A stretch of DNA of 64,000 nucleotides from positions 12,389,504 through 12,453,503 of the forward strand of contig NC_088298.1 in the NCBI RefSeq assembly GCF_032854445.1. The letters run 5' to 3'. Below are positions 4,913-10,900 of the stretch, one piece after another (within the stretch, counting starts at the first letter, position 1; each line of letters begins with the position of its first letter). The position numbers and the translations under genes were made by a program. Source of the stretch: Liolophura sinensis (lineage: Eukaryota; Mollusca; Polyplacophora; Chitonida; Chitonidae). The notes under the pieces are model-generated. The model was not told where the DNA came from. It saw only the letters and a list, made by a program, of their open reading frames with translations, and made no database searches.

Positions 4913-7900
4913 GTGAGTTAATTGATTTTGGTTAGGATATACGTAGAAACTGATGCAAATACAAGTATATATGGTATGTACAGAAAAGCTATTACTGTAA
5001 ATCTTCAACCTTTTCAATCACTAAGGCACCTTTTTAAATGGAGTTTAAATGCATGCAATTGTTATGAAAGTGACACTAAAATGATTTGTTTGTGTCACAG
5101 GCTTCATAAACATGTGCAGATTATTTCTCTACATCCCATAGTTCTCTCAAAATGTTTAAAAGTACTGGTTGCAGAGAGGGTTGAAAAGGTTGGAGAATTA
5201 GGGTATATTGTATGAGGGAGCAGTCCATGATGGAGTAGGTCATGCCTTTTAATGGCCAGGTCACTGTCACATGATGTGTTGGTTCAGACTTTTGTCAGGA
5301 AAATTTGTCAGTAACTTGTCAAGGTGGGTTGTTTACCCTATGGTTGAGGACCACCAACACTCTGATACATGTACATGTGGACATATGTTTGTTCTATTGC
5401 CCCTCTTGACCCAGGAGTCTCTCACCAATGCAGTTGCTGTGAGTTCAAGTCCAGCTCATGCTGGCCGTACGGGGGAATGTCTTCCAGCAACCTTCAGATG
5501 GTTGTGGGTTTCCACCAAACATAATGCTGGCCGACGTCGTCCAAGTGAATTGTTCTTGAGTACAGCGTAAAACACCAATCAAATAAATAAATAAATAAAC
5601 AAATAAATAAATACATAAATAAATAAATATTGCCCCTCTTAATGATATCCTGTTTTGTGTACATCTTGTGGTTATTCCCTCTTAAAGATTCCTGTTACTC
5701 TTATTTGCACATGTTGTCTTTATTCCCCCTGAATGCTTTCTGTTCCTTTTTTGTGTACATATTGTGTTTATTCCTCCTTAATGATTTCTGTTTCTGTTTT
5801 GTGTACGGTACCTTTTGTGTTTAATTCCTCTTAATGATTTCTGTTCTTGTCTTGTGTGGTTATTCCCTCGTAATGATTTCTGTTCTTGTCTTGTATGGTT
5901 ATTCCCTATTAATGATTTCTGTTCTTGTCTTGTGTAGTTATTCCCTCTTAATGATTTCTGTTCTTGTCTTGTGTGGTTATTCCCCCTTAATGATTTGTTC
6001 TTGTCTTGTGTGGTTATTCCCCCTTAATGATTTCTGTTCTTGTCTTGTTTAGGTCTTGTGTAGTTATTCCCTCTTAATGATTTCTGTTCCTTTTTTGTGT
6101 ACATCGTGTGTGGTTATTCCCCCTTAATGATTGCCGTTGCTGTTTTGTGTGGTTATTCCCCCTTAATGATTTCTGTTCTTGTCTTGTGTGGTTATCCTCT
6201 CTTAATGATTGCCGTTGCTGTTTTGTGTGGTTATTCCCCCTTAATGATTTCTGTTCTTGTCTTGTGTGGTTATTCCCCCTTAATGATTTCTGTTCTTGTC
6301 TTGTTTAGGTCTTGTGTAGTTATTCCCTCTTAATGATTTCTGTTCTTGTCTTGTGTACATCGTGTGTGGTTATTCCCCCTTAATGATTGCCGTTGCTGTT
6401 TTGTGTGGTTATTCCCCCTTAATGATTTCTGTTCTTGTCTTGTGTGGTTATCCTCTCTTAATGATTGCCGTTGCTGTTTTGTATACCTGTAGGTGAGAAT
6501 GACCCATGGAATCACCCATACTAATGTGGTTCAGTTTCATGAATGGTATGAAACCAGCAACCACCTGTGGCTGGTTGTGGAGCTTTGTACAGGTAATCCC
6601 TCTCTCTAGGTAAAGAGCTGCTCCACCTTTTGTGGAAATATGTAAAAAGCTGGGTTAAATTGTTAAAAATGCTTTCCACATTTAGATCAGTTGTGAAATG
6701 TATTAAAATCCAATATTTTAAGGTTTAGACGATGAAATAGAAACAGAAGTTTTTTTGTTGTTTTCCACTATTGCCTACCTTGATGTTATTCAAAAACACA
6801 TGGCATCACCCATTGCGAAGCCATATGTTTAGCCACAGTTGATACTGTACTTACAAACATTCTTGATGTCATTCTAGTATGCCCTAATTCCTCTAATGTT
6901 TTGGACACTTGGTGTGGGTTTTTTTTTTCGCCCATTCACATGTAATTCTTATTGTAGCAGGAATATTAAATTTCTTTTTTGTCACATGGTAGGTACATCT
7001 ATAAACAACATATTTATATCTTTACTTTTCCAAAAAACCTTTGAGAGAAATGTAGTTCTTTGCACTGCTAATATCTGTCCTAAAAATTATAAGAATTGGG
7101 CTAATTGCCTTACTTGAAGTTATATTTGCTTGGTATGATACTTCGGTGGAAGCAGCACTTTGGCAGCATGGACTCAAGAAAAGATCAAAGAATCAAGAAA
7201 AAAAGTATACATGTATGTAAACAAAACTAAGTAATGATTGGCAAATGGTTTAGTATGACATAAAACCTCAAGGTTACCACGCAAGGTGACCACTTGCCAA
7301 TTTTATGTTTGTTTGCATACAGGTGGAAGTCTGTAGTCTGTTATCAGCCAGGATACCCACTTGCCTGTGTTATGTTTCCTTGTGTACAGGTGGAAGTGTG
7401 AAGTCTGTTATCAGCCCGGATACCCACTTGCCTACATGTATGTTATGTTTCCTTGTGTACAGGTGGAAGTGTGAAGTCTGTTAGCACCCAGGATAACCAC
7501 TTACCTGAGTTAGGGTTGTGTACAGGTGGAAGTCTGGAGTCTGTTAGCACCCAGCATAACCACTTGCCTTTGTTATGTTTGCTTGTGTACAGGCAGAAGT
7601 CTGGATACCCACTTGCCTACATGTGTGTTATGTTTGCTTGTGTACAGGTGGAAGTGTGAAGTCTGTTAGCACCCAGGATAACCACTTACCTGAGTTAGGG
7701 CTGTGTACAGGTGGAAGTCTGGAGTCTGTTAGCACCCAGCATAACCACTTGCCTTTGTTATGTTTGCTTGTGTACAGGCAGAAGTCTGGAGTCTGTTAGC
7801 ACCCAGGATACCCACTTGCCTATGTTGTGTTTGTTTGTGTACAGGTGGAAGTCTGTAGTCTGTTATCAGCCAGGATACCCACTTGCCAATGTTACGTTTG

Positions 7901-10900
7901 CTTGTGTACAGGTGGAAGTGTGAAGTCTGTTAGCACCCAGGATAACCACTTGCCTTTGTTATGTTTGCTTATGTACAGATGGAAGTCTGGAGTCTTTTGT
8001 CAGCGAGGATACCCACTTGTCTATGTTATATTTGCTTGTGTACAGGTGGAAGTCTGTAGTCTGTTATCAGCCAGGAATATCACTTGCCTATGATATTTTT
8101 GCTTGTGTACAGGTGATGTCTGGAGTCTTGTTAGCACCCAGGATAACCACTTGCCTATGTTGTGTTTGCTTGTCTACAGGCAGAAGTCTGGAGTCTTTCA
8201 TCAGCCAGGATGACCACTTACATGCGATATGTTTGTTTGTGTACAGGTGGAAGTCTGGAGTCCATTATCACCCAGGATAACCATTTACCTGAGTTAGGGT
8301 TGTGTACAGGTGGAAGTCTGGAGTCTTTCATCAGCCAGGATGACCACTTACCTGTGATATGTTTGTTTGTGTACAGGTGGAAGTCTGGAGTCCATTATCA
8401 CCCAGGATAACCATTTACCTGAGAGTTCTGTGAGGGAGTTTGGTGTGGATTTAGTCACCGGCCTTCATTATATACACACTCTGGACATCCTCTTCTGTGA
8501 CCTCAGGCCATCCAAGGTAAAGAAATGAGACCAGTGCAGACCAGTTTTGTTTATCTTATTGTCTCCTTACACCAAAAGATATAATATATGAACAAAGTAA
8601 TTTTGCATCAACATCGAACCCCAATCAAAGAGTCAGACAAATTAAGTTATGCTGGAAAAAACATGGGAGTATTGTGTTACTGCTTGCCTGAAGACTGGCC
8701 TATCTCGTTGGATGTTGCTAGCTACATGTACACATTATTCTGATATTGTGGAGCATTCTGGTTTTGGTCCTCATTACAATATGAAGGAGAGGCAGCTCAA
8801 CCCACAACCTGTCTTCTGTGGTGGTTCTGTCTCTGTCCCTGTATCAGCGTGTCCACACAGCAAATTTGTCTTTTTCAATTAAGTTGCTCTGTTGTGATCA
8901 TCTGGAAAAAATTCCAGATGTTTAAGTTAATTGTTGCAAAGGACAGTCAGACAGGAATTAAATGTACATTGTCGTAATTAACATCACTCAGATTTGTTGA
9001 GTCCACTTCTTTGGTGATGTACATTGTGTAGTTATGCCCTCCTAAAACTTTCGGAACTTGCATTGTTAAATCAAAATTTGACCAGAAATTTGACGAATAC
9101 TGTCTAGAAAAATGCAAATGGCACAACGTATATGTATACATGAAACAGTAAAACAAGTCTTCTCATCTGGAGCACTCTTTCTTTTTTCTCCTCTGTCAGT
9201 GTCTGTATAACTGCATGGCTGTAGCGTGCTTGTATTGACATAGTTTGCATAGAATGAGCATGTAGACACGGCTGTATGTTGTTGGGTTTCTGCGAGCTTA
9301 TGTAAATAAGTATTATTTTATTCAGTTCTTGGGCAACACACAATAAAATATGTTCGCGGGAATTAATTTTCACGTATTTAAGAGAATACTGAAGAACAGA
9401 TCTTAAATTCTCACAATTTTCCAAGATATGATATGGCAGAAATTATTCAAGCATGTCAAACAGGTCTCATCATGAGTGGCTTTATTCCTCCTTTGTTTCC
9501 TGCGGTGTCGCAAATCGTCATGATCTGCATCACAGATTAAAACCATGGGGGATGTGTTGTGAGAAGATTACTTTCACACCTACCATGAGCAGTACTCAAA
9601 CAGGTGTCACTTCTTTTCGAATCATTGATGAGTACTTTTAAACTCCTGGCAAAGTGACCTTTTGAGCGGTTCAACGCAAAACATATGAATTCACCATTAT
9701 CGGTGCTGGTCACTCTTTCTTTATCAAGCAGCACAGAAAGTTTTGCATTGTTTTCAGTTTTATCGTCCTCTGCAGCAGGTCAGAAACTGCAAACATTGCC
9801 GTAGCTGTCGAACGGCCATTGTGTACACACTTCACAGTTTGTTAAAAGCTCATTCATTGGACCACAGGAGAGACTCAGCCAGTGGGATAGCATGTATCAG
9901 AGCGACATTCATTTGAAGCCAGCATGTGCTGGTATCTACTTTTTTTCACTTTACGGACAAAGGGAAGATTGATCAACCTAAAGACGAATGAACTCCCACT
10001 TTGATTTATTCCCACCAAGCCTTAGCACCAGAGTTTGTATATATTTAAACCATAGTTTCCCTTCCCTGCTGTTAAAAAATTTACCTGGCCCGTCAGGCTT
10101 TCCTAGCACAACTCCCGTCAGCCTGGCAAAGATTTCACTTCATTATTACTACTACCTGTAGTATATGATTCAATATTGGATATTTTTTTCGCTGGAATTA
10201 ATTTTTACTGTTAATTATTGCTCGCAACATCCACGAAAAATTAGTACTTCACAGAGAGCAGTTGTTGAAGCTGGAATGCATCTTTGGGCAGCTCTTAACT
10301 CTCATTTGAAATGAGGTTGTCTTCCACAAATATGGTGTGCTTTTCTGCATCACATATGGGAAAGTTCTTCAGTGACTTCCCAGAGGTCAGTGGTTTATGC
10401 CCAACACTCTGATTTCCTCCTCTCATAAAGCTAACAGCCATCGTGTACATTGTAAGTGAAAATTTATGTAATGATGTTAATAAACAATCAAGTAAATAAG
10501 TAAATTATTGTTTTCTTCTTGTACTAGATCCTGCTGGATGGTCCTGGAGTGCTGAAGTATGCTGACTTTGGTCTGTCAAAAGTGGACGGCGAGGACTTGG
10601 TGGAATTGTTTGAGAAGTTTGCCGAGGCAGGTGAGGCAGGGGCAGGGGACATAGACACAGAGGAGCTGCGGAAGAAGTCAATAGGTAACAAGCATATTCT
10701 GTTGAGAGGGCTTTTAATTTCATGGATGTGGAGCAAAAGTGCAGTAAGACCAAAACTTCTTCGTATAGTAGCTCAGTGTGTTGAATGGTATATTAATGTA
10801 TCATTTGGACTGTAATGTCATAATGTCTTATAATTTGATATAACTATGATGCTCTAGGAAACAAATTTTACGGTTTACTGTCTGGCTATTTGATTGGATG

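Follow-up and report, generated by a model that had tools for sequence, protein, structure and literature searches.

Minisatellite-like arrays in which an intron/exon boundary of the host gene is tandemly duplicated, known as mirages, have been described in the Adh, TnC, globin, and PGBD5 genes of lancelets. Their units are reported to measure 150-160 bp in the globin gene BflGb6 and 10-72 bp in Adh3, and the paper on PGBD5, a gene with related duplications, names TnC as well. In BflGb6, the unit consists of the 3' end of an intron and the 5' part of an exon, the two haplotypes carry six and three units that undergo concerted evolution, and reverse transcription PCR suggested that splicing proceeds without interference. 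Here we describe an array of this kind in a 64,000-nucleotide stretch of the Liolophura sinensis genome (contig NC_088298.1, positions 12,389,504 to 12,453,503; hereafter the window), where a minisatellite in intron 2 of the kinase gene ULK4 repeats the splice acceptor and the first coding bases of exon 3 in front of the exon itself.

Tandem Repeats Finder (TRF) describes this minisatellite as having a period of 67 bp, 17.2 copies, 79% matches, and a score of 1258 (Table 1). A search for TACAG returned 17 junctions: 16 decoys in intron 2, whose first exon-like bases lie at 7323, 7390, 7463, 7526, 7593, 7648, 7711, 7778, 7845, 7912, 7979, 8046, 8113, 8180, 8247, and 8310, and the true start of exon 3 at 8377. 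A typical unit is made of about 45-47 bp that resemble the start of exon 3 and about 20 bp that resemble the end of intron 2. The array unit crosses an intron/exon boundary of its own gene, the genuine boundary being the final unit; kinase sequence follows this last copy only and runs through to the exon 3 donor at 8516/8517. An earlier note on this DNA had proposed 16 exon-bearing decoys before exon 3, with only the final copy continuing into kinase sequence, and both claims agree with what we found. Its description of a unit of about 67 bp with tgtacag and about 47 coding bases stands for the period and for the 14 of 16 decoys in which the motif is exact (it is catacag at 7323 and tctacag at 8180), but not for a uniform length: units range from 55 to 73 bp, with 67 bp in 11 decoys and 63 bp in three.

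With the lancelet mirages of Adh3, BflGb6/BflGb9, TnC, and PGBD5, the ULK4 array shares the duplication of a boundary, a splice signal and coding bases within the unit, turnover, and an original exon that is apparently still in use. With BflGb6, it also shares polarity, i.e., the intron 3' end joined to the exon 5' part. Unlike in the lancelet mirages, the host is a mollusc, as placed by the ULK4 tree presented below. The array has 16 extra copies, compared with the six and three units given for the BflGb6 haplotypes, and its 67-bp unit contrasts with the 150-160 bp stated for BflGb6 while falling inside the 10-72 bp stated for Adh3. We found no mirage outside lancelets in the open-licence papers searched, in which molluscs were covered through titles and the beginnings of abstracts. 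We class the ULK4 array as a mirage because it has the structural features of one and because the published description does not use the taxon as a defining feature; judged from sequence, it is a mirage of known type in a new host group. Normal splicing despite the copies and differences in length between haplotypes or individuals are also reported of mirages, though they may not be part of the definition. The earlier note had called so many decoys in a conserved gene unusual, a view that is weakened by the boundary-spanning arrays already described in the four lancelet genes. Somewhat further removed are human genes whose structure tandem repeats have altered within segmental duplications (PMC2812944), where some minisatellites lie at exon-intron boundaries, as the ULK4 array does, and can form introns. 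Those repeats are described as changing exons and introns of paralogues, whereas in ULK4 exons 2 and 3 read normally and the copies are intronic.

The array also carries signs of its own history. It contains higher-order duplications of 185 bp and 130 bp, and these internal duplications point to turnover. The first, which the earlier note had not named, is a match of 188 bp with at most three mismatches (Table 1). The second includes the true exon start: segments 8186-8293 and 8316-8423, which the earlier note had recognized as nearly identical, agree at 106 of 108 positions, and the match grows to 112 bp if three mismatches are allowed. Within it, the decoy at 8247 equals the start of exon 3 over 47 of 47 coding bases, the final GAG being common to both parts of the unit, and then continues as GAGTTAGGGTTGTGTACAG, which is the 19-nt tail of unit 7463 (identical) and of unit 7648 (one difference). 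Simple copying of exon 3 would have left exon sequence at this point, so unit 8247 looks recombinant, with the true exon and a decoy of the 63-bp type as its parents; it looks like the product of unequal exchange or gene conversion in the shared exon-like sequence. Judging by this unit and by the 112-bp match, the true exon 3 has recently swapped sequence with the array, in keeping with the earlier claim that the exon start is drawn into array turnover, although from one haplotype an exchange from exon to decoy is indistinguishable from one in the opposite direction. A bolder proposal, which we hold to be rather unlikely, is that the exon 3 start still takes an active part in the array, with sequence flowing both ways between it and the 16 decoys. 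A conserved kinase segment and non-coding copies would then undergo concerted evolution, in a phylum for which the literature searched describes no mirage.

Near-identical repeats invite the question of assembly, and errors in it could partly account for the copy number or for the internal duplications of 130 bp and 185 bp. The window contains 200 N, both internal duplications are nearly identical, and the lancelet globin paper reports a faulty assembly of one lancelet mirage in the draft genome. However, all but three of the 136 unit pairs (the exceptions being 7463/7648, 7526/7711, and 8247/8377) differ at 2-12 aligned exon-like positions; the array as such therefore cannot stem from one read repeated, and we consider even a partial artefact very unlikely.

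We think it probable that the array is a nearly neutral mirage, driven by turnover, and that its decoys are mostly ignored in splicing. The last ~20 nt of intron 2, comprising the polypyrimidine tract and AG, and the first ~47 nt of exon 3 would have been tandemly duplicated, and the duplicated segment would then have been expanded and shuffled through unequal exchange or gene conversion, with the true exon start participating as the last, selected member of the array. The true acceptor would be used in most transcripts, as the sole start of a complete exon nearest a good donor; exon definition and proximity to the donor presumably favor it. Occasional use of the nearest decoys would give stop-containing messenger RNAs open to nonsense-mediated decay, which may serve as a backstop.

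Near neutrality is supported by decay of the decoys and by the outcome of their use. Three of the 16 (7323, 7845, and 8046) have a stop in the exon-like frame, reading GGSL-stop-SV, and in two others (7593 and 8113) the exon-like part has indels. When exon 2 is joined to a decoy and read towards the exon 3 donor, a stop is met for all 16, the last of them at 8408; the five decoys whose distance from 8377 is divisible by three (7390, 7648, 7711, 7912, and 8113) are no exception. The earlier prediction that decoy 8310 shifts the frame into the TAA at 8408-8410 was reproduced. Such stops would be expected from unconstrained copies. Differences between decoys and exon 3, counted over the 14 decoys without indels, number 42, 21, and 42 at codon positions 1, 2, and 3; the third-position count does not exceed that of the first position, which is what an absence of selection predicts. 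Exon 3 itself has an open, ULK4-like reading frame and intact coding, and its start, compared across 36 relatives, is variable, yet GGSL, QD, and LPE are mostly kept.

We scored the decoy acceptors with a matrix built from 22 acceptors of ULK4, from which the exon 3 acceptor and 15 of the 39 modelled exons (as doubtful) were excluded; one training site scores only -3.2 and the others 6.3-17.1, a sign that the gene model is imperfect. The true site scores 16.47 and the decoys 9.05-17.65, three of the 16 at or above the true site, so that by this small, gene-trained matrix the decoy acceptors are within the range of real ones. The array holds 16 acceptor-like sites scoring at least 9. Among 62 intronic control windows of ULK4, which overlap one another, the mean is 0.32 and no window has more than 2, and the count in 300 mononucleotide shuffles does not go beyond 5; the decoy acceptors are therefore not due to chance.

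The earlier note had held that the gene must either choose the last of 17 similar acceptors or use the array to lower its output, a conclusion firmer than the sequence supports. In a regulatory role, decoy acceptors could compete with the true site, or stall recognition of exon 3, leading to intron 2 retention or premature stops and thus to less ULK4. Besides acceptor scores in the range of real sites, the fact that every decoy choice yields a stop fits such a role, and decoy exons are reportedly discussed in connection with intron retention, for example for OGT. On the other hand, the architecture shows no sign of being fixed, with units of 55-73 bp, near-identical internal duplications, and decayed members; the stops would arise without selection; and the reports on lancelet arrays of like kind suggest no splicing effect. 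As folded RNA, 7420-8419 has a lower stability than its shuffled versions (z +3.87; none of 20 shuffles folds worse), which suggests no folding switch and led us to discard structural masking of the decoys as well. We regard regulation by the array as improbable.

How the true acceptor would be told apart is illustrated by decoy 8247. It matches the true site at all 23 scored acceptor bases and from -20 to +47, and within the 112-bp match the two differ upstream only at -25 and -22; the true acceptor can therefore hardly be picked by its own sequence. What sets the true site apart from the decoys is what follows it, namely the remainder of exon 3 with the donor at its end. Donors were scored with a matrix from 23 donors of ULK4. 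The exon 2 donor scores 8.69; every GT in the array falls at least 1 unit short of this value, and none reaches 7.1, the lower quartile of ULK4 donors. Because no array GT comes near the exon 2 donor score, the units look acceptor-only, and cassette or poison exons made from single units were rejected on the same grounds, with the proviso that the scarcity of donors is non-significant against control introns.

The sequence at the junctions suggests one more outcome, harmless recursive splicing. Most decoys read CAG/GTGGAA, so that a GT is re-formed immediately after the junction when exon 2 is spliced to one of them; from this GT, splicing could proceed to a later copy and finally give normal messenger RNA. 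AG/GT is kept in 12 of the 16 decoys, and the exon start, with its codon G/GT, hands this property to each copy. However, the rebuilt donors score 4.8 in 11 decoys and 6.85 in one, below the exon 2 donor and below the lower quartile of the 23 donors in the matrix, and because an identical GT (4.8) stands at the true exon start, the process would not be halted there. Of all the explanations considered, we give this one the least credence and regard it as highly improbable.

Several observations weigh against a neutral array with ignored decoys. The low count of differences at second codon positions could hint at constraint, although recent origin or chance could also account for it. The shortage of good donors is in itself unremarkable, as 25 of the 62 control windows and 32 of the 300 shuffles likewise lack a good donor, and the donor matrix is both small and trained partly on the donors of exons 2 and 3. 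Finally, use of one of the three closest decoys would lengthen the exon from 140 nt to 207, 270, or 337 nt, and exon definition does not exclude such lengths.

Judged by homology, the gene carrying the array is ULK4, and the segment is its exon 3, as the earlier note had proposed. Exon 3 matches ULK4 structures in the PDB (6u5l, E 9.8e-16; 6tsz, E 1e-15), the next best kinase being at 0.0072. A tblastn search with human ULK4 found ULK4-like segments on the + strand from 4775 to ~48.6 kb. The gene model from spliced alignment has 39 exons, with identity at 569 of 1276 positions; several of these exons are doubtful, chiefly in the poorly conserved middle. A Pfam Pkinase domain is present (2.7e-50), and the predicted 1254-aa protein is 55% identical to Mytilus edulis ULK4-like at 100% query coverage, so similarity extends beyond the kinase domain. 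In the protein search, which scored 7999 candidates, the top matches among the best 120 of 1176 are molluscan (Potamilus 56%, Gigantopelta 56%, and Mytilus 55%, the closest being at ~56-57%), with Branchiostoma at 46%. In a tree of 36 of the proteins listed and the window protein, the latter falls inside a fork of 28 mollusc rows (support 100/99). The adjacent fork of gastropods and bivalves (25 rows, 100/98) is without the window protein, and the fork uniting the window protein with them against the cephalopod rows has support of 94/91. The end branch of the window protein is long (0.65), perhaps partly because of doubtful exons. By this placement, the host is probably a mollusc that belongs to none of the bivalve, gastropod, and cephalopod groups sampled; a scaphopod or a chiton is a conjectural fit. 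A lancelet origin of the window, which the mirage literature had suggested, was rejected on the basis of the molluscan top matches and of the tree.

Table 1. Coordinates of the ULK4 exons and array features in the window
Feature	Position	Strand	Description and evidence
ULK4 exon 1, coding part	4775..4912	+	Met at 4775, donor ACT/gtgagt; tblastn with human ULK4 (74% identity over 47 aa), spliced alignment
ULK4 exon 2	6493..6592	+	3' end TTTGTACAG/gtaatcc; tblastn, spliced alignment
Mirage-type minisatellite, 67-bp unit (55-73)	7289..8421	+	Covers the 3' part of intron 2 and extends 45 bp into exon 3; TRF, unit alignment
16 decoy units	7323..8376	+	Exon-like start (~45-47 bp in most) and intron-like tail of ~20 bp ending in TACAG
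188-bp internal duplication, copy 1	7418..7605	+	Copy 2 at 7603-7790, offset 185
112-bp near-identical segment, copy 1	8182..8293	+	Copy 2 at 8312-8423, with the true acceptor and first 47 coding bases of exon 3
Chimeric decoy	8247..8309	+	47/47 identical to exon 3 start, then 19-nt tail of the 63-bp unit type
True ULK4 exon 3	8377..8516	+	Donor AAG/gtaaag, first codon split with exon 2; PDB matches, tblastn, alignment with 36 ULK4 proteins
TAA stop	8408..8410	+	In frame upon use of decoy 8310 or decoy 8247

The ends of intron 2 have a further property. A nine-base direct repeat, TGTACAGGT, lies at both of its splice sites (6586-6594 and 8370-8378) and is the longest such repeat among 17 introns between retained exons. 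When donors of the gene are paired with its other acceptors, real pairs included, one of 528 pairings reaches at least 9 and three reach the gapped score. A past copying of the end of exon 2 into the end of intron 2 would fit this repeat, a meaning so doubtful that we give it little weight; birth of the intron from the end of exon 2 was rejected, since as many as 17 introns had been examined and since the sole pairing of at least 9 joins an unrelated acceptor to the exon 2 donor (10 nt). To go by their titles, Zhuo et al. 2007 (introns from tandem arrays) and Gao and Lynch 2009 (intron creation by internal gene duplication) reportedly deal with introns that arise from duplicated segments; the ULK4 array shows no new intron.

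The window looks rich in minisatellites. One at 5648-6482, with a unit of ~39 bp and a higher-order period of 256 bp, ends 11 bp before exon 2 and abuts the pyrimidine stretch of its acceptor; it is without exon sequence. An array with a 16-bp unit at 14192-14664 starts 10 bp past the point where ULK4 exon 7 ends in the gene model (14099-14182). A 27-bp repeat at 41360-41446 (3.2 copies by TRF) lies in an open frame that is apparently a ULK4 coding exon and encodes a repeated peptide; spliced alignment skipped part of it. Long minisatellites with units of 28-72 bp and up to 33 copies occur at 22931-24652, 31931-32944, 42338-43740, 55402-56954, and 63609-64000. A reverse transcriptase fragment (RVT_1, 3.3e-07) at 26903-27202, in a long ULK4 intron, is perhaps the remnant of a retroelement without long terminal repeats (non-LTR).

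Self-comparison of ULK4 for further mirages gave local repeats at exon 3 only (one of 29 exon segments), in a scan that is insensitive to short repeats and missed the 27-bp repeat inside the exon at 41360-41446. That arrays hug exons as a ULK4-wide rule was rejected: of the 16 arrays in the gene, four are no more than 12 bp away from an exon, compared with an expectation of 2.8 (P 0.29) if arrays may not contain whole exons or 5.8 (P 0.92) if they may. For this count, overlapping TRF rows were merged, rows outside the gene and 10 of the 39 modelled exons were excluded, and two exons were merged.

A mollusc case with 16 exon-bearing decoys suggests that the mirage process is not peculiar to lancelets. 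Because of the array, the splicing machinery must tell the genuine exon start from many false copies that closely resemble it. The array is in this sense a natural experiment in splice-site choice, in which selection of the true site should depend mostly on the exon downstream and its donor or on the wider context. It also offers a test of whether coding sequence homogenizes with non-coding copies.

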